64,000 bases of DNA, taken from Leptolyngbya sp. FACHB-321 (GTDB lineage: Bacteria > Cyanobacteriota > Cyanobacteriia > Leptolyngbyales > Leptolyngbyaceae). The stretch lies in assembly GCF_014695975.1 (NCBI RefSeq), contig NZ_JACJPI010000084.1, forward strand, positions 124,001 through 188,000. The letters are read 5' to 3'. Below the pieces are notes generated by a model that was not told the DNA's origin, made no database searches, and was given only the letters and a program-made list of their open reading frames with translations. Positions within the stretch are counted from its first letter, which is position 1. Every line of letters starts with the position of its first letter. A program made the position numbers and the translations under genes. Below are positions 5,900 to 63,612 of this stretch, in pieces.

Positions 5900-6201
5900 G
5901 TGAGCGAAGCAGGCACTACTTGATGCCCAGCTTGCAACAATACTTGAACAGCTCTCTTCAAAACTGATTGCTTCACCAAAACGTAATCTGTGTTGTAGGC
6001 AGAGATAGCAAAAATGCTAATGTCAGCGGTCGGCGGGATGACTGCTTGGGTACACATAATCGAGAGTTTGTCCTGCGTCCGCGCCACAGCAAAAAATCCT
6101 TGCAGACTCCAAGCTGATATGGGCAGAGCGCGATCGAGCTGACAGATAGCAAACACCTCTTGCAAGATGGCAAGAGTAAGTTGCACGTCAGAGGTAATCA
6201 A
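5884..6201 (-). CDS. ACT-domain protein (CASTOR/ACT_7-like)
   Basis: A 105-residue protein resembling the short cyanobacterial ACT-fold proteins. The sequence has the W-S-L-x-G-F-F-A-V-A and [18 protein letters not shown] segments typical of that family, which in better known members binds amino acids. Its ATG (6201-6199) overlaps the stop of the upstream sulfur-carrier gene by 4 bp (ATGA), so the two are translationally coupled. Together with thrC upstream this suggests an amino-acid sensing or regulatory role, but the ligand is unknown. Confidence 0.78.
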
Positions 6202-6473
6202 CCACCCGCGATCGCAGGAATAATGCTAACCTCATCGCCATCTTTTAGGGGGGTTTTAGCACCCTCTAAAAAGCGAATATCTTCACTGTTGACGTAGAAG
6301 TTGACGAAACGACGCAACTCACCTTTGTCATCACATAACCGCGCTTTGATGCCGGGACAGCTTGCTTCCAGCGATTCCAACAAATCAGAAACGGTATCAG
6401 CGTTACATTCAAGCGTTGCCTGATTGTTCGTCAGCTTTTGAAGTGGAGTCGGAATAAGAACTTTAATGGACAT
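6198..6473 (-). CDS. MoaD/ThiS-family ubiquitin-like sulfur carrier
   Basis: A 91-residue beta-grasp protein ending in Gly-Gly, the C-terminus that MoaD/ThiS-type carriers need for adenylation and thiocarboxylate formation. The body shows the usual pattern: [12 protein letters not shown], a helix with [29 protein letters not shown] and [16 protein letters not shown]. It lies between thrC (99-bp gap) and the ACT gene (4-bp overlap), not with molybdopterin or thiamin genes. By analogy with CysO in Mycobacterium or HcyS in Wolinella it may carry sulfide for amino-acid synthesis. That is an inference; no partner E1 enzyme lies in this window. Confidence 0.88.
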
Positions 6474-6572
6474 GGGTTGAAAAGATAAAAGGATAAATCA
6501 TGAAATAGCACAAAGATGAAGTAAGAAAGGGCTGTTTTGACGTTTTAGCCTTCAGCCCTTATCCTTCTATTC

Positions 6573-7874
6573 TTAAACTAAAACTTGCTGCCATTCCAAG
6601 CGCTCTAACGTGTGTGAGCGTTCGAGTGCCCGCTCAAAGCTGTCTAGTTTGGGTTCGATCGTAAACGGTTCGCCGATGTAACCCTGCATTGCTTCTTGGG
6701 TTTTTAGACCATTGCCTGTGATGTAAACAACTGTCGTTTCATCAGGATCAATCTTGCCAGCTTCCACTAGCTTTTGCAGCACTGCTACAGTCGTGCCGCC
6801 AGCAGTTTCGGTGAAGATGCCCTCAGTTTCTGCTAATAGCTTGATGCCTTCAATAATTTCGGCATCGGTAACAGATTCAATATTGCCGTTGGTCTTGCGA
6901 GCAATGTCGATCGCGTAAACCCCATCTGCCGGATTGCCGATCGCTAGTGATTTAGCAATGGTGCTGGGCTTCACAGGTGTTACAAAGTCACGTCCCTCAC
7001 GGTACGCCTGGGCGATCGGAGAACAACCGTCCGCCTGCGCGCCGCTAAAGCGCACGTGCTTATCAGCAACCAATCCCACATCTACAAATTCTCGGAAACC
7101 CTTATAGATTTTCGTGAAGAGAGAACCTGAAGCTAGCGGTGCCACAACATGGTCGGGCAACTGCCAGCCTAGTTGTTCTGCCACTTCATAGCCCAGCGTT
7201 TTGGAGCCTTCAGAATAGTAAGGGCGCAGGTTGATATTGACAAAGCCCCAACCATGCGTGTTGGCAACTTCAGAACAGAGGCGGTTTACCTGATCGTAAT
7301 TGCCCTGCACCGCCATCACGGTGGGACCATAAATCAATGTGCCCATAACCTTACCAGCTTCCAGATCGGCAGGAATGAAGACACAACAGTCTAAGCCTGC
7401 ATGAGCCGCGATCGCCGCTGTAGAGTTTGCCAGATTGCCAGTGCTAGCGCACGAGACAGTCGAAAAACCTAACTCTTTTGCCCGCGTTAGCGCTACTGAT
7501 ACCACCCGATCCTTAAAGCTAAGGGTGGGCATATTCACTGCATCATTCTTGATGTACAGCTTATTCAAGCCAAGGCGACGTGCCAAGCGTTTCGCCTGCA
7601 CGAGCGGTGTCATACCTGTACCTACGTCGATCGGCTGGTTGGTTTCAACAGGCAAAAAGGATCGATAGCGCCAGATCGAATTTGGTCCTGCCTGAATCGT
7701 TTCGCGGGTCACTGTTTGACGTAGAGCATCGTAATCGTAAACAACTTCCAAGGGACCAAAGCAGTACTCGCAGACGTGCATAGCCTTGAGTTCGTACTCT
7801 TCGCCACACTCTTTACACTTAAGCGCACGAAAGGTTGCAGCAGATTTGGTTTTTGGTTGAGTTGCCTGGGTCAT
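6573..7874 (-). CDS. thrC: Threonine synthase
   Basis: A PLP enzyme converting O-phosphohomoserine to threonine in the cytoplasm. I start it at ATG 7874 (MTQATQPKTK, 433 residues), preceded by GAGAGC; the frame stays open 29 codons further upstream but that part is not protein-like. An N-terminal zinc-ribbon-like segment has Cys20, Cys23, Cys35 and Cys38. The PLP lysine is Lys121 in LSFKDRVVS, and the phosphate-binding loop is in ASTGNLANSTAAIAAH. It is the first gene of a leftward group with the sulfur carrier and the ACT protein. Confidence 0.96.
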   Translation of the reverse strand: MTQATQPKTKSAATFRALKCKECGEEYELKAMHVCEYCFGPLEVVYDYDALRQTVTRETIQAGPNSIWRYRSFLPVETNQPIDVGTGMTPLVQAKRLARRLGLNKLYIKNDAVNMPTLSFKDRVVSVALTRAKELGFSTVSCASTGNLANSTAAIAAHAGLDCCVFIPADLEAGKVMGTLIYGPTVMAVQGNYDQVNRLCSEVANTHGWGFVNINLRPYYSEGSKTLGYEVAEQLGWQLPDHVVAPLASGSLFTKIYKGFREFVDVGLVADKHVRFSGAQADGCSPIAQAYREGRDFVTPVKPSTIAKSLAIGNPADGVYAIDIARKTNGNIESVTDAEIIEGIKLLAETEGIFTETAGGTTVAVLQKLVEAGKIDPDETTVVYITGNGLKTQEAMQGYIGEPFTIEPKLDSFERALERSHTLERLEWQQVLV

Positions 7875-57287: not shown

Positions 57288-59168
57288 ATGTCGAATCTCT
57301 TCTTGAAATCTCTGCTAGTTAGCCCCGCAGTTCTTGCTGCTGCTCTGGCAGTGTCTACATCCGCGATTGCAACTGAAGCTAAAGCAACAAACGATGTTGT
57401 GCAGTCTCAAGCTTCAGCCCTTCAGCCTCTTTCACTGGCTGCTGCGCCACAGATTGCTGCACCAGAAGTATCTGCTTCAGATGTTGCACCGATTGCGTCT
57501 GATCATGCGGTCACCAGCTTAGAGCCAAAAGCTTTACCTGCACCAGTAGAAGTTGCACAAGCAGCTCCCGCAGCCTCTGAGCCTGCTCTTTCTGAGTCGC
57601 CCTCGAACTCTCTGAATCAAATCAATCGGTATACCCGCGAAGGTCGTACCTCAAATGCTCAAGTAACTTCGGTTTCTCAACTTTCTGATGTTCAGCCAAC
57701 CGATTGGGCATTCCAAGCGTTGCAATCGTTGGTCGAGCGCTACGGTTGTATTGCTGGTTATCCTGACCGTACCTACCGTGGTAATCGTGCTACCACCCGT
57801 TACGAGTTTGCGGCTGGCTTAAATGCCTGCCTTGATCGCGTCAATGAACTCATTGCTGCTGGCACTGCCGATTTGGTGAAGAAAGAAGACTTGGCTGTGC
57901 TGCAAAAGCTACAGGAAGAGTTTGCGGCTGAATTGGCAACCCTTCGTGGTCGCGTTGATTCTCTAGAAGCTCGGACAGCAACCCTTGAGAAGCAACAGTT
58001 CTCAACTACCACCAAGCTTTCGGGTGAAGTAATCTTCGCTATCACCGACGAGTTCGGTCAGCCAAGAAGCAACGAGACTGTGTTCCAGGACCGGGTTCGT
58101 TTAGCTCTCAACACCAGCTTTACGGGTAAAGACTTGCTGGTCACTCGTCTTGCGGCTGGTAACTTTAGATCTTTCAACCTTGGAGATGACTTCTCAGGCG
58201 TTGGTTTACAGACATTCCAGTTTGGTAGTACAAATAACAACCAAGTCTTCGCTGACTGGGTTGCTTACTACTTCCCATTGGGTGAAAAGATTAGTGTTTA
58301 TGTTCCAGCCTTCGCAGGTCTGCAATATGACTACGCCCCTACTCAGTCAGGTCTGATGGAAGGCTTTGATGGTGGTTCTGGACCACTTAGCGTTTTTGCT
58401 CAACGCAACCCAATTTACAACATTGGTGGTGGTTCAGGTCTTGGTGTGAACTTTGACCTTACCAACAACTTCAAGATCAGCCTTGGTTATTTGGCAGACA
58501 ACTCCACTTTGAACGCAGAGGGCGGAACTCTTCAGCCACCAGCGGCTGCTTTTGGAGCGAATAACCCTGCTGAGAAGAACGGTTTGTTCAACGGTAGCTA
58601 CTCCGCTTTGGCTCAAGTTGCCTTCAATACTGATTTCTTCTCCATTGGTCTCACCTACGTGAATGCGTATCGTCGTGGTGCGATCTTTGACACCGGTAGC
58701 GGTGGTGCAGTTGTGGGTACAAGCCTGGCAAACCTAGCGTTTCTTAACCCCAATGGCACATTCACATCATCTCGAGTGAATGCTTACGGTATTTCAGGGT
58801 CGATTAACCTTGGCAGAAATATCTCGGTAAATGCCTTTGGTTCGTACATCGAAGCTGATAAAGTGGGCGATGGTTTTGATGCGGGCGATATCTGGACTTA
58901 TGGTATCGGTCTTGCCTTTGCTGATTTTGGCAAAAAGGGAAACCTGCTGGGTCTAATGGCAGGTGTTGAACCTTATCTGGGCAACAGCCAACAGCTTGGT
59001 CGTGGGACAGGAAACTCTGAGCCAATCCACCTTGAGGCGTTCTACAGATATCAGTTGACTGATAATATTTCTATTACGCCTGGTGTTATCTACGTGATTA
59101 ACCCTGGTCAAGTCAACAACAGCTCAGACATCTTCATTGGTACTTTGAGAACGACCTTTACGTTCTAA
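57288..59168 (+). CDS. SLH-domain outer-membrane porin, iron-uptake porin family, copy 1
   Basis: A 626-residue porin. A signal peptide (MSNLFLKSLLVSPAVLAAAL, Ala-rich to about residue 30) is followed by an Ala/Ser/Pro-rich linker, an SLH domain (about 124-190; SQLSDVQPTDWAFQALQSLV, GYPDRTYRGNR) that should bind peptidoglycan-linked polysaccharide, a coiled coil (EEFAAELATLRGRVDSLEA) and an OprB/Som-like beta-barrel ending in TFTF. Such proteins are the major cyanobacterial outer-membrane channels. The paralogues at 59609 and 61753 share the first half. A double terminator follows. Confidence 0.93.
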   Translation: MSNLFLKSLLVSPAVLAAALAVSTSAIATEAKATNDVVQSQASALQPLSLAAAPQIAAPEVSASDVAPIASDHAVTSLEPKALPAPVEVAQAAPAASEPALSESPSNSLNQINRYTREGRTSNAQVTSVSQLSDVQPTDWAFQALQSLVERYGCIAGYPDRTYRGNRATTRYEFAAGLNACLDRVNELIAAGTADLVKKEDLAVLQKLQEEFAAELATLRGRVDSLEARTATLEKQQFSTTTKLSGEVIFAITDEFGQPRSNETVFQDRVRLALNTSFTGKDLLVTRLAAGNFRSFNLGDDFSGVGLQTFQFGSTNNNQVFADWVAYYFPLGEKISVYVPAFAGLQYDYAPTQSGLMEGFDGGSGPLSVFAQRNPIYNIGGGSGLGVNFDLTNNFKISLGYLADNSTLNAEGGTLQPPAAAFGANNPAEKNGLFNGSYSALAQVAFNTDFFSIGLTYVNAYRRGAIFDTGSGGAVVGTSLANLAFLNPNGTFTSSRVNAYGISGSINLGRNISVNAFGSYIEADKVGDGFDAGDIWTYGIGLAFADFGKKGNLLGLMAGVEPYLGNSQQLGRGTGNSEPIHLEAFYRYQLTDNISITPGVIYVINPGQVNNSSDIFIGTLRTTFTF

Positions 59169-59178
59169 CTCTATACAG

Positions 59179-59210
59179 AAAGCCTCCCTGCACTAGTTGC
59201 AGAGGCTTTT
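59179..59210 (+). terminator. Rho-independent terminator after porin 1
   Basis: AAAGCCT pairs with AGGCTTT around an inner CTGCA/TGCAG stem, then TTTT. Confidence 0.85.
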
Positions 59211-59225
59211 GTACCGTTAACTTTG

Positions 59226-59257
59226 AAAGCTCTCCCTTTACACGGAGAGCTTTTTTT
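59226..59257 (+). terminator. Second rho-independent terminator after porin 1
   Basis: AAAGCTCTCC pairs with GGAGAGCTTT across an 8-base loop, followed by a T-run to 59257. It lies 15 bp beyond the first hairpin. Confidence 0.9.
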
Positions 59258-59608
59258 ATGGTTTTCTTGTTTGTAACAATCTTTACCAGCTTTATGTGAT
59301 GATTTTTACTGAAAACCTTAAGAGTTTACCTTTCTAAAACAAGTGCTAGAAAATAACCAGGGAAATAGTGTATATATTTAAAGTCCTGTTAACCATCGTC
59401 CCTAATAATCAGTAGAGAAGGTCGGTAGTACTATCCAACAGAGTGGTATTGCAGATTGCAAAATCGTCTCTTGAGTGACCCTTCTAAACCATTACTTTTG
59501 TTGAGGTTTCTAGCTTCTCTTTGAATCAGAGAAGTTGTCGAGGAACAGCGCGTTGATGAGTAATGTGGACGGTCTGTAAACGGAATCTTTTGTCTTTAAG
59601 GTGTGAGT

Positions 59609-61426
59609 GTGAAAGCAATGATGTCAAGAAAATTTTGGAAGCCTTTGTTGGCAGTCCCTTCTCTTTTGGGTGCAACGATCGCAGTATCTGCAATCGCAGC
59701 GACAAGCGTTGCCGCTAATGCTGCTGAAACAGCAACCGTATCAGTGTCTTCAGTAGAAGCTGCAGAGCCTGTAGTGGAAGCATCAGCAGCTCCTGTGGAA
59801 ACGACAACGATTGCTGACGCAACGATCGCTAACGCAGCACCAGCGCCAACGCAGTCTGCTACAACAGCGTCAGCTCAAGAAAATGAGGCTACTGCTGATT
59901 TAGCAGCGACAGGGATTGCAGGTCAAGTGACATCTGTTTCTCAGTTGTCAGACGTGCAGCCGACCGACTGGGCTTTCCAAGCACTGCAATCGCTGGTTGA
60001 GCGCTATGGCTGTATTGTTGGTTATCCTGATCGCACCTATCGTGGCAATCGGGCACTGACTCGGTATGAGTTTGCCGCTGGCTTAAATGCTTGCATGGAT
60101 CGGATCAACGAGTTGATTGCTGCAGGCACCGCTGATCTAGTCAAAAAAGAAGACCTCTTAGCAGTTCAAAAGCTGCAAGAAGAATTTGCGGCTGAACTAG
60201 CCACGCTGCGCGGTCGTGTCGATGCGGTAGAAGCACGGACAGCAACGCTGGAGAAGCAGCAATTCTCCACCACCACCAAGCTGGTTGGTGAAGCCATCTT
60301 TACGATCGCAGACACCTTCGGCGATAGCGCAACTAGAACCGGTAATGGCACCCTGATTCCTGGAACAACCGAGAACGACAACACAGAAACCATCTTTGCC
60401 GATCGTGTTCGTCTTAACCTAGACAGCAGCTTTACTGGTAAAGATCAGTTGCGGATTCGCTTGCAGGCACGCAACATCACGCCTTTTTCGGGTGCTGCCT
60501 TTACTGGAACGAATGAAACGCGGTTAGGTTTTGATGGCAACAACTCAAACTCTCTTGAAGTCAGTAAGGTCTTCTACCGTTTTGCTCTCAGCAACAACTT
60601 TAGATTGCAGGTTGATGCAGTCGGCAATGAGTTTTACAACGGTCTTGTTAGTACCCTAAGCCCCTTCACAAGCAGTGGTAATGGCGCACTGTCGCGTTTT
60701 GGACGGTTTAGCCCTATCTACCGGAGCAATGCAAACGGCGCTGGTTTTACGTTTGAGTACAAGTTTAGCGATTTTCTCGCTCTTCAAGGTGGCTATATTG
60801 CTGACACCCTTAGCAACGACCCAACTCCAACAAATGGTCTTTTCAACGGGGCTTACACTGCTTTAGGGCAGGTCGTTCTCAAACCCAGCAGAGCTCTTGA
60901 AGTCGCGCTGACCTATGCTCGCTCTTACTACCCTGGTAACGAGGTCAACATCACCTCAAGTACTGGTAGTGGGTATGCGTCTAACCCCTTTGCTTCCAGT
61001 GCAGCGATTCGTCGAGCCACATCATCTGATGCATTTGGTGTGCAGGCGCAGTTCCGCCTCAGCCCTAAATTTATTGTTGGTGGCTGGTTTGGCTACACCA
61101 AAGCCTATCAAGCTGGGAATGCAAATGAAGCCGATGTTCTTAACGGTTCTGTCTTCTTAGCCTTCCCCGACCTGGGCAAGAAAGGCAACTTGGGCGGCAT
61201 CATCGTGGGTATTCCACCGAAAGTTACTGGCAACGACTTTATTGCTGCTAATGGGCTGCGCCGCATTGATGACGACACCACATACCATGTAGAAGCGCTG
61301 TACCGCTACCGTGTGACCAACAACATTGCGATTACACCTGGTGTCATCGTTATCTTCAACCCAGAAGGAAACAACGACAACGCAACACAATATGTTGGCG
61401 TGATTCGGACAACCTTCTCGTTCTAG
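59609..61426 (+). CDS. SLH-domain outer-membrane porin, iron-uptake porin family, copy 2
   Basis: A 605-residue paralogue of copy 1. I place the start at GTG 59609, aligned with the start of copy 3 and 7 bases after AAGG; a GTG six bases upstream and ATG 59618 are alternatives. Signal peptide, Ala/Thr-rich linker, SLH domain (from about 59934) and coiled coil are followed by a barrel that differs clearly from copies 1 and 3. The N-terminal 360 bp are nearly the same in DNA as copy 3. It ends TFSF. A strong terminator follows. Confidence 0.92.
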   Translation: MKAMMSRKFWKPLLAVPSLLGATIAVSAIAATSVAANAAETATVSVSSVEAAEPVVEASAAPVETTTIADATIANAAPAPTQSATTASAQENEATADLAATGIAGQVTSVSQLSDVQPTDWAFQALQSLVERYGCIVGYPDRTYRGNRALTRYEFAAGLNACMDRINELIAAGTADLVKKEDLLAVQKLQEEFAAELATLRGRVDAVEARTATLEKQQFSTTTKLVGEAIFTIADTFGDSATRTGNGTLIPGTTENDNTETIFADRVRLNLDSSFTGKDQLRIRLQARNITPFSGAAFTGTNETRLGFDGNNSNSLEVSKVFYRFALSNNFRLQVDAVGNEFYNGLVSTLSPFTSSGNGALSRFGRFSPIYRSNANGAGFTFEYKFSDFLALQGGYIADTLSNDPTPTNGLFNGAYTALGQVVLKPSRALEVALTYARSYYPGNEVNITSSTGSGYASNPFASSAAIRRATSSDAFGVQAQFRLSPKFIVGGWFGYTKAYQAGNANEADVLNGSVFLAFPDLGKKGNLGGIIVGIPPKVTGNDFIAANGLRRIDDDTTYHVEALYRYRVTNNIAITPGVIVIFNPEGNNDNATQYVGVIRTTFSF

Positions 61427-61752
61427 TGAGCTAAAAGCTCAGGTTAATAAATAAACTAAGCCCCGTCGCGACGGGGCTTTTTTCATGCATCAGTTGCTTA
61501 TAGGAATGCAATACATATAGCTAAAGGATAAAGGATGAATAGAAGCTCCTGCTCAAAGGAGGTCTTAAGGTTCAAGCCTGTCCTAACGTTCTCTTTGGCT
61601 GCTATAAAAGCATAATCATCAAAAAGCACCTAAGCTTCGAGCTTTTTTGCTTAAGTCAGTGTAAAATCTGACGAGTTGAAAAAAACTCATTCGATGGGTT
61701 CTTTCAGCAGCTTTTAAGTAGGATTTGTCTCTTGAGTGTGAGGTGTGTGGGA
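61427..61752. other. Intergenic region upstream of porin 3
   Basis: Contains the terminator at 61458-61483. A small hairpin AAGCT-TCG-AGCTT followed by a T-run (61632-61648) lies about 105 bp before porin 3 and might be an attenuator. No gene is visible. Confidence 0.5.
61458..61483 (+). terminator. Rho-independent terminator after porin 2
   Basis: AAGCCCCGTCG pairs with CGACGGGGCTT around a minimal loop, then a T-run to 61483. Confidence 0.92.
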
Positions 61753-63612
61753 ATGAAAGAAATGATGTCAAAACAGTTTTGGAAGCCTTTACTAACAACT
61801 CCAGCGCTTCTGAGTACTGCTGTTGTTATTTCTACGATCGCAGGTACAACGTCGGCTGTAAAAGCGACGGAAACGATTGCTAGCGAGACTCAAACTCTAA
61901 CTGCATCGGCGCGTTCTGAAAGTCCCGCGCTTACAGCGGACGCTTCAGCCGTAACAGCTCAGCCTGTTGCATCAACAGCCCCTGTGAATCAACTGTCGGT
62001 TTACAGCGCTGAAGGTAAAGTTGAACCCGATGGTGTGAGTCAGGTGACATCTGTTTCTCAGTTGTCAGACGTGCAGCCAACTGACTGGGCTTTCCAAGCA
62101 CTGCAATCGCTGGTTGAGCGCTATGGCTGTATTGTTGGTTATCCCGATCGCACCTATCGCGGCAACCGAGCGCTGACTCGGTATGAGTTTGCTGCTGGCT
62201 TAAATGCTTGCATGGATCGAATTAACGAATTGATTGCTGCTGGCACAGCTGATCTGGCTAAGAAAGAAGATTTGCTAGCAATCCAAAAACTGCAAGAAGA
62301 ATTTGCGGCTGAATTGGCGACCTTGCGTGGTCGTGTCGATGCGGTAGAAGCACGAACAGCAACGCTTGAGAAGCAGCAATTCTCCACCACCACTAGGTTG
62401 GTTGGTGAAGCCATCTTTACAATCGCAGATGCGTTTGGTGATTTCCCACAGCAAGGAGGCACTAATACTGTCTTTAACGATCGCATTCGCTTAAACTTGC
62501 TGACGAGCTTTACAGGCAAAGATCGCTTGAGAGTACGCCTTCAAGCTGGTAACGCGACACGACTGCTCAGCAATCCCAGCATTCCTAACGCGCAAAATAA
62601 CTACCAGCGTACTAACGAAGGGAACTTACCCTATGACGGTGGTAACCCTGCTGCTGATGGCACAGTCACCGACCCAAACAATAGCGGCAATGCAGTCGCT
62701 TTGGAAGCACTCGATTACCGCTTCCCCATTGGCAACAATATCTTTGCGAACGTTTTTGCGAATGGTGCGTTGCACCACTACTATGCTGATACAGTCAACC
62801 CCTTCTTTGAAGGTAATGGCGGCGGTCAGAACGCACTGTCGCGTTTTGCTGAACGGAACCCAATCTACCGCATTGGACCCTTGGGCGCAGGGGTTGGGTT
62901 TAACGTTAAGTTTAGCAATAGCCTCAAGCTCGACCTTGGCTACATTTCTAACACTGCCAGCAACCCTGGACCTGATGCCGGTCTCTTTAATGGCAACTAC
63001 TCAGCGTTGGCGCAGTTGGTCTTTAACACGGGCGGCTTCAAGCTTGGTTTAACTTATGTACGGGGTTACGAGCGTAATACTCCTGGGCTGACGGCTGGTA
63101 ACAACTTCAACCTGGGTGGTACGGGTACAACGTTTGCCAACCTAAACAATAATTCCCTTTTGAGGGGACGATCGTTTCCAGTTGAAAGCAACTCGTTTGG
63201 TGTGGAAGCATCTTTTCAGCCAACCTCCAGCATCGTTGTCAACGGTTGGCTAGGCTATAGTGACGCGAATATCATTGGTCTAGGTGACGCAGATATCTGG
63301 AACTTTGCAGTTGCAGTTGGCTTCCCCAACCTGGGTAAGAAAGGCAACTTCTTGGGTATTGTTGCTGGGGCAGAACCAACATTGAGGGGCACTGATTTTG
63401 ACCCTGTTAACTTGAGTCCAGCCTTCGCTAGCAGAAGTCAGGATTTTGCTTACCACATCGAAGTTTTCTACAAGTACCAACTTACAGACAACATTTCGAT
63501 TACTCCCGGTGTGATTTATCTCCCCAGTGTCAACCAAAATGCAGGCATTCCTGGAGACAACTCCAACGCAGATGTCTTTATTGGAGTTTTACGCACAACC
63601 TTTACGTTCTAG
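61753..63612 (+). CDS. SLH-domain outer-membrane porin, iron-uptake porin family, copy 3
   Basis: A 619-residue paralogue, started at ATG 61753 (MKEMMSKQFWKPLLTTPALL) to align with copy 2; an in-frame TTG lies at 61732. Same order: signal peptide, linker, SLH domain (GYPDRTYRGNRALTRYEF), coiled coil and a beta-barrel ending in TFTF. The barrel has longer Asn-rich loops near residue 250-300 than the others. A 46-bp perfect palindrome serves as terminator downstream. Confidence 0.93.
   Translation: MKEMMSKQFWKPLLTTPALLSTAVVISTIAGTTSAVKATETIASETQTLTASARSESPALTADASAVTAQPVASTAPVNQLSVYSAEGKVEPDGVSQVTSVSQLSDVQPTDWAFQALQSLVERYGCIVGYPDRTYRGNRALTRYEFAAGLNACMDRINELIAAGTADLAKKEDLLAIQKLQEEFAAELATLRGRVDAVEARTATLEKQQFSTTTRLVGEAIFTIADAFGDFPQQGGTNTVFNDRIRLNLLTSFTGKDRLRVRLQAGNATRLLSNPSIPNAQNNYQRTNEGNLPYDGGNPAADGTVTDPNNSGNAVALEALDYRFPIGNNIFANVFANGALHHYYADTVNPFFEGNGGGQNALSRFAERNPIYRIGPLGAGVGFNVKFSNSLKLDLGYISNTASNPGPDAGLFNGNYSALAQLVFNTGGFKLGLTYVRGYERNTPGLTAGNNFNLGGTGTTFANLNNNSLLRGRSFPVESNSFGVEASFQPTSSIVVNGWLGYSDANIIGLGDADIWNFAVAVGFPNLGKKGNFLGIVAGAEPTLRGTDFDPVNLSPAFASRSQDFAYHIEVFYKYQLTDNISITPGVIYLPSVNQNAGIPGDNSNADVFIGVLRTTFTF

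Follow-up and report, generated by a model that had tools for sequence, protein, structure and literature searches.

Probable gene conversion confined to the wall-binding anchor of two tandem SLH-OprB porins in Leptolyngbya sp. FACHB-321

The porin array and its closest described systems

The cyanobacterial outer membrane is rich in SLH-anchored porins. They are compared here to the OmpM type, which has been proposed as an ancestral means of fastening the outer membrane to the cell wall. In this study we have analysed a stretch of 64,000 nucleotides from Leptolyngbya sp. FACHB-321 (contig NZ_JACJPI010000084.1, positions 124,001 to 188,000; hereafter the window), in which positions 57288-63612 hold three tandem genes, c1, c2 and c3, all on the + strand, that encode porins with an SLH domain, a coiled coil and an OprB barrel. 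The results indicate that the close similarity of c2 and c3 over the anchor part of these proteins very probably arose by gene conversion, most likely from c2 to c3, once the lineage of FACHB-321 had separated from its sampled congeners.

The domain order of the array porins is the same as that of OmpM, such as Veillonella parvula OmpM1 (PDB 8bym/8bys), and of other cyanobacterial SLH-OprB porins. The OmpM study describes several paralogs per genome and an SLH-stalk unit shared by three chains, and the word "recombination" is absent from its text (PMC10628300). Segmental concerted evolution explained by gene conversion has been described for homA/homB and babA/babB of H. pylori (PMC2795765), which are likewise outer-membrane paralogs in which one segment clusters by strain and another by gene. 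In H. pylori, however, it is segment 3, the 3' part, that is homogenised, and the variable middle is discussed as antigenic, whereas in the array porins the periplasmic anchor and stalk are homogenised and the barrel stays gene-specific. Long-lasting concerted evolution of whole genes in prokaryotes is known from psbA and psbD of cyanobacteria (PMC6053082), where, as for c2 and c3, paralogs within a genome are closer than orthologs at synonymous sites, with synteny as the control. That survey differs in covering full-length cases only; part-gene cases are left as future work and the word "porin" does not occur. Concerning gene conversion in cyanobacterial or SLH porins, we found nothing on point in the literature searched, in which subscription papers were mostly outside coverage; anchor-limited conversion in SLH porins looks unreported there, while segmental concerted evolution itself is known.

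The features of the array are as follows.

57288..59168, + strand: c1, SLH-coiled-coil-OprB porin of 626 amino acids, outside the conversion
57660..58049, + strand: SLH-coiled-coil-beta1 segment of c1, the unconverted homolog of the tract
59603..61426, + strand: c2, SLH-coiled-coil-OprB porin of 607 amino acids, GTG start as called, barrel orthologous to the congeners' c2
59924..60313, + strand: conversion tract of c2, amino acids 108-237 (SLH, coiled-coil helix, first beta-strand)
60314..61423, + strand: c2 barrel beyond the tract, unconverted, c2-type from loop 1 onwards
61732..63612, + strand: c3, SLH-coiled-coil-OprB porin of 626 amino acids, TTG start as called, barrel and linker c3-type
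62041..62430, + strand: conversion tract of c3, amino acids 104-233, probable recipient of c2 sequence
62431..63609, + strand: c3 barrel beyond the tract, unconverted, c3-type

In both c2 (59603-59625) and c3 (61732-61770) an in-frame ATG lies just ahead of the conserved "MS" that opens the signal peptides of other family members, so the true starts may sit a few codons downstream of the called GTG and TTG.

Each of the three chains carries both Pfam PF00395 (SLH) and PF04966 (OprB) above cut-off. All three also score 529-676 bits, against a cut-off of 100, with the NCBIfam profile NF033921 (por_somb, "iron uptake porin"), which they cover in full (positions 1-485 of 485). By these profile matches, c1-c3 are classed as full-length members of the NF033921 SLH-OprB family; the iron-uptake label comes from the family name. 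Mutants in Anabaena porins could not establish a link to iron uptake, and Synechocystis Slr1908 is cited as iron-transporting in the same paper (PMC9705863). In sequence searches the anchor part of the array porins matches PDB chains of OmpM1 and SlpA. A structure model of moderate confidence (mean predicted local distance difference test score 62) assigns amino acids 122-173 to SLH helices and 182-220 to a long stalk helix, followed by strands from 224, and its best fold matches include OprB (4gey) and OmpM1. This analogy suggests that the array porins would be trimeric outer-membrane tethers of the OmpM type, with the SLH domain on the cell wall. The genome of FACHB-321 holds twelve main members of the porin family, three of them in the array, plus fragments. 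On the same contig, outside the window, lie the remains of a broken SLH-OprB porin (L013, L015; G000:C83:3390-3932), with an SLH piece 76% identical to c2 and a barrel piece containing two TAG stops.

Similarity of c2 and c3 set against syntenic orthologs

Across the SLH, the coiled coil and the first beta-strand (about 390 nucleotides), c2 and c3 share 90% of their DNA, and a repeat finder returned a block of 300 nucleotides in which c2 is 90% identical to c3 and 77% identical to c1. Third codon positions of c2 and c3 are 77% identical over the anchor segment (83% in the SLH, 72% in the coiled coil) and 42% identical in the barrel, and those of the c1 segment are 49% identical to c2 and to c3 alike. 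In sliding windows along the codon alignment, synonymous divergence (pS) between c2 and c3 is 0.19-0.35 in the SLH and 0.4-0.58 in the coiled coil, and mostly 0.6-0.9 outside the anchor, with a mid-barrel dip to about 0.55; c1-c2 and c1-c3 are near saturation along their whole length. The contrast is significant, since 43 of 52 synonymous codons are identical in the SLH versus 71 of 146 in the barrel (p=1.6e-5). The maximal-scoring run between c2 and c3 covers c2 amino acids 109-233, with 92 of 120 synonymous codons identical (p=0.0005, 2000 permutations), and holds after correction for 27 pairs, whereas the same test gave no significant run shared by c1 with c2 or c3 (p=0.90 and 0.94). Among the 66 pairs formed by the twelve paralogs of the genome, c2-c3 is the sole outlier, with a synonymous identity of 0.75 that sits 5 standard deviations above the other 65 pairs (mean 0.41, maximum 0.56).

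Four congeners that carry the array between the same neighbour genes served as the comparison set, and synteny is kept on both sides of the array in all four. Three of them have a four-gene array, c1-c2-c2b-c3, while FACHB-321 and one congener are without c2b in the array. The gap between c2 and c3 in the window (61427-61731) is the site at which three congeners carry c2b (L048:6980-8782; L057:5350-7179). Congener G1 carries a copy of c2b type on another contig, and no copy was found elsewhere in the FACHB-321 genome (97% complete) at the expected c2b similarity.

The two parts of the genes give different trees. In the barrel DNA tree the sequences group by gene, with one clade across species for each of c1, c2, c2b and c3, and a constrained pairing of the window c2 and c3 is rejected (p=0.0002 by the approximately unbiased test, p-AU). 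In the SLH-coiled-coil DNA tree, rerun without long-branch distant rows, the window c2 and c3 are sisters (support 98/98), and an orthologous c2 clade and an orthologous c3 clade are both rejected (p-AU 0.011 and 0.012), while c1 and c2b stay orthologous clades. Over the tract, pS to orthologs is 0.63-0.74, about equal to that of the barrels (0.60-0.71), versus 0.35 between c2 and c3, and SLH third positions are 42-62% identical to orthologs versus 83% between c2 and c3. The two paralogs are therefore more alike within the genome than either is to its syntenic orthologs at synonymous sites. Non-synonymous divergence (pN) from orthologs in the anchor is 0.01-0.08 overall, with 0.04-0.08 for the window c3 versus 0.01-0.02 for c1. 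Yet of the three barrels that of c3 is conserved best (pN 0.07-0.08), and such an unusually divergent anchor protein despite a conserved barrel is expected if foreign residues have been imported into c3.

The borders of the shared segment can be read from individual residues. Upstream, c2-type residues at c2 positions 104-107 occur in c2 but not in c3, and downstream each protein is of its own type again at residue 238 (T versus A) and within 242-246 (243, 245 and 246). Inside the tract, c3 carries the c2-type residues L152 and A211, and Q119, R144, V209 and A231 are common to the window c2 and c3 but occur in none of the c2 and c3 orthologs sampled. The tract thus extends over about 390 nucleotides, from the border of linker and SLH to the end of the first beta-strand. 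Because it is flanked on both sides by sequence of each gene's own ortholog type, the conversion is bounded and later than the split from the sampled congeners. For the anchor, these residues favour the direction c2 to c3. Conversion of the promoters of c2 and c3 was not supported, as only a short stretch near the start is similar (79% over 63 nucleotides).

The initial annotation had located three tandem SLH porins at the positions found here, and had proposed gene conversion among all of them with diversification of the barrels, perhaps for different solutes. Conversion between c2 and c3 is borne out by the ortholog comparison that it had itself suggested (trees, pS and own-type flanks), and the uniform synonymous divergence that would have spoken against it is not seen, the divergence being strongly uneven along the pair. 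Its description of the two anchors as almost the same even at third positions goes too far, as about a quarter of the synonymous codons differ, although the contrast with the barrel is significant. Copy 1 is indeed less close, at background level, and has to be left out of the exchange, since its anchor and its barrel are both orthologous to the congeners' c1. Nor is barrel diversification, for solutes or otherwise, borne out: each of the three barrels belongs to an old lineage of orthologs that separated from the others long ago and has been conserved within the genus (pN 0.07-0.20, with the near-saturated pS given above), with no non-synonymous excess in this comparison.

Anchor-limited copying in other cyanobacteria

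Anchor-only copying recurs across several cyanobacterial groups. After Bonferroni correction, anchor synonymous identity is above that of the barrel in 7 of 26 tandem pairs drawn from 136 loci, which is not a frequency estimate because the sample includes some related genomes and was in part picked by similarity to one positive. The clearest anchor-limited conversion found is in the L155 pair of genus g43 (L155:5071-8813, - strand), where synonymous identity is 0.98 in the anchor versus 0.46 in the barrel, and where about 112 codons are 100% identical over the SLH and coiled coil, with about 60-80% identity immediately on either side. Orthologous pairs show older or no conversion: L151, from a one-contig genome related to L155, has 0.81 in the anchor versus 0.42 in the barrel, and L154 has 57% anchor synonymous identity. 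Two Nostoc pairs, L107 (0.98 versus 0.52) and L099 (0.90 versus 0.49), are similar over most of the N-terminal part, and here duplication with later exchange of a barrel is a possible alternative to conversion.

In the array of congener G1, a tract between c2 and c3 in the signal peptide has 22 of 24 synonymous codons identical (p=0.0005); this separate short conversion (L051:3766-5640 and 5938-7743, both on the - strand) stops short of the anchor. Candidates in the other congeners are weaker and fail correction for multiple pairs. The suggestion in the initial annotation that conversion was repeated is thus apt for the family and for the array of G1, but in FACHB-321 one tract, possibly two, is resolved. 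Among three tandem porins of Spirirestis (L137:4175-9732), two are near-duplicates along their whole length (0.89/0.86), and what the first has in common with the second is mainly the anchor (0.77 versus 0.55).

Origin and meaning of the shared anchor

We propose that the ancestral array probably comprised four genes, c1-c2-c2b-c3, encoding OmpM/SomA-type porins in which an N-terminal SLH domain binds the wall, a coiled coil forms the trimeric stalk and an OprB barrel makes up the C-terminal part. A non-reciprocal homologous recombination, most likely from c2 to c3, would then have copied about 390 nucleotides that encode the SLH, the stalk helix and the first beta-strand, while each gene kept its own upstream linker and downstream barrel. 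The agent may have been ordinary RecA-type recombination between neighbours. The restriction of the tract to the anchor would reflect two things: strong purifying selection on the protein, which keeps the DNA there alike enough to recombine whereas barrels and linkers are too diverged, and the harmlessness of swaps where three chains share one SLH-stalk unit, as in OmpM (PMC10628300). The anchor of c1 is about 78% identical in DNA to that of c2 or c3, and in unconverted paralogs the longest exact matches are typically 14-17 nucleotides in the anchor versus 8-12 in the barrel.

It is also conceivable, though we think it improbable, that homogenisation of the anchor was itself selected rather than a by-product of sequence identity. 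An identical SLH and stalk might let the different barrels of co-expressed neighbours form mixed trimers, or might keep every porin suited to the particular cell-wall polymer of the strain.

Other routes to the shared anchor are less likely still. A third, unlinked porin or a homolog gained by horizontal transfer could have replaced both anchors, and the private residues Q119, R144, V209 and A231, which no sampled congener has in its c2 or c3, would fit such a donor, the same Q and R occurring in some dispersed paralogs. However, no dispersed paralog of the FACHB-321 genome exceeds 0.56 synonymous identity to c2 or c3, so none is close enough to have been the donor. An extinct or unsampled donor is possible, but overall we regard this origin as quite unlikely.

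There is very little to recommend a recent duplication of c2 or c3 followed by barrel replacement in one copy. It too predicts alike 5' parts with different barrels, and the extended N-terminal similarity of the two Nostoc pairs resembles its outcome, but in the window each gene has the linker and barrel of its own ortholog type within an array that is syntenic in four congeners, and in c3 a c2-type anchor stands between a linker and a barrel of c3 type. A crossover between c2b and c3, which would have deleted c2b and left a hybrid gene in place of a non-crossover conversion, agrees with the absence of c2b from its place between c2 and c3 in the window. Such a hybrid should show a c2b-type signal peptide, linker or upstream region; instead the end of the c3 linker is c3-type, and the SLH third positions of c3 are 83% identical to the window c2 versus 42-58% to any c2b of the genus, and on these grounds the event was rejected as the source of c3, the explanation being hardly tenable. 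Purifying selection alone, acting on the protein and on codons through expression or RNA structure, is equally remote: the anchor protein is strongly conserved (ortholog pN as above) and high expression is possible for porins, but synonymous divergence of the anchor from orthologs and from the c1 paralog is as high as in the barrels, and codon or RNA constraint as the cause of the c2-c3 excess was rejected on the strength of near-saturated ortholog pS.

Several observations nevertheless weigh against conversion between c2 and c3, or against this account of it. The anchor segment in the tree is 360 nucleotides long, which limits support inside it, and in an earlier tree with very distant rows the c3 clade was not significantly rejected (p-AU 0.227). 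Amino acids 161-203 in the middle of the tract are weakly above background (24 of 40 synonymous codons identical, p=0.22 versus the barrel), and therefore a single tract, a pair of neighbouring tracts that differ in age, and a single tract altered later are all compatible with the data. The direction rests overall on few residues and is ambiguous at the 3' end (amino acids 229-236). As the congeners are distant, with synonymous sites near saturation, the event cannot be dated. With regard to the mechanism, the unconverted c2-c2b pair of congener G2 has its longest exact run, 21 nucleotides, in the barrel, and conversion is absent in some adjacent pairs, so that being neighbours with similar anchors does not by itself bring it about.

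The occurrence of anchor-limited conversion in several cyanobacterial groups has consequences for how these porins are studied. Where it occurs, a tree of entire porin sequences combines two histories, and the anchor evolves as a module separate from the pore. Converted pairs also offer replicates provided by nature for the question of whether porin paralogs form mixed trimers on a common stalk.

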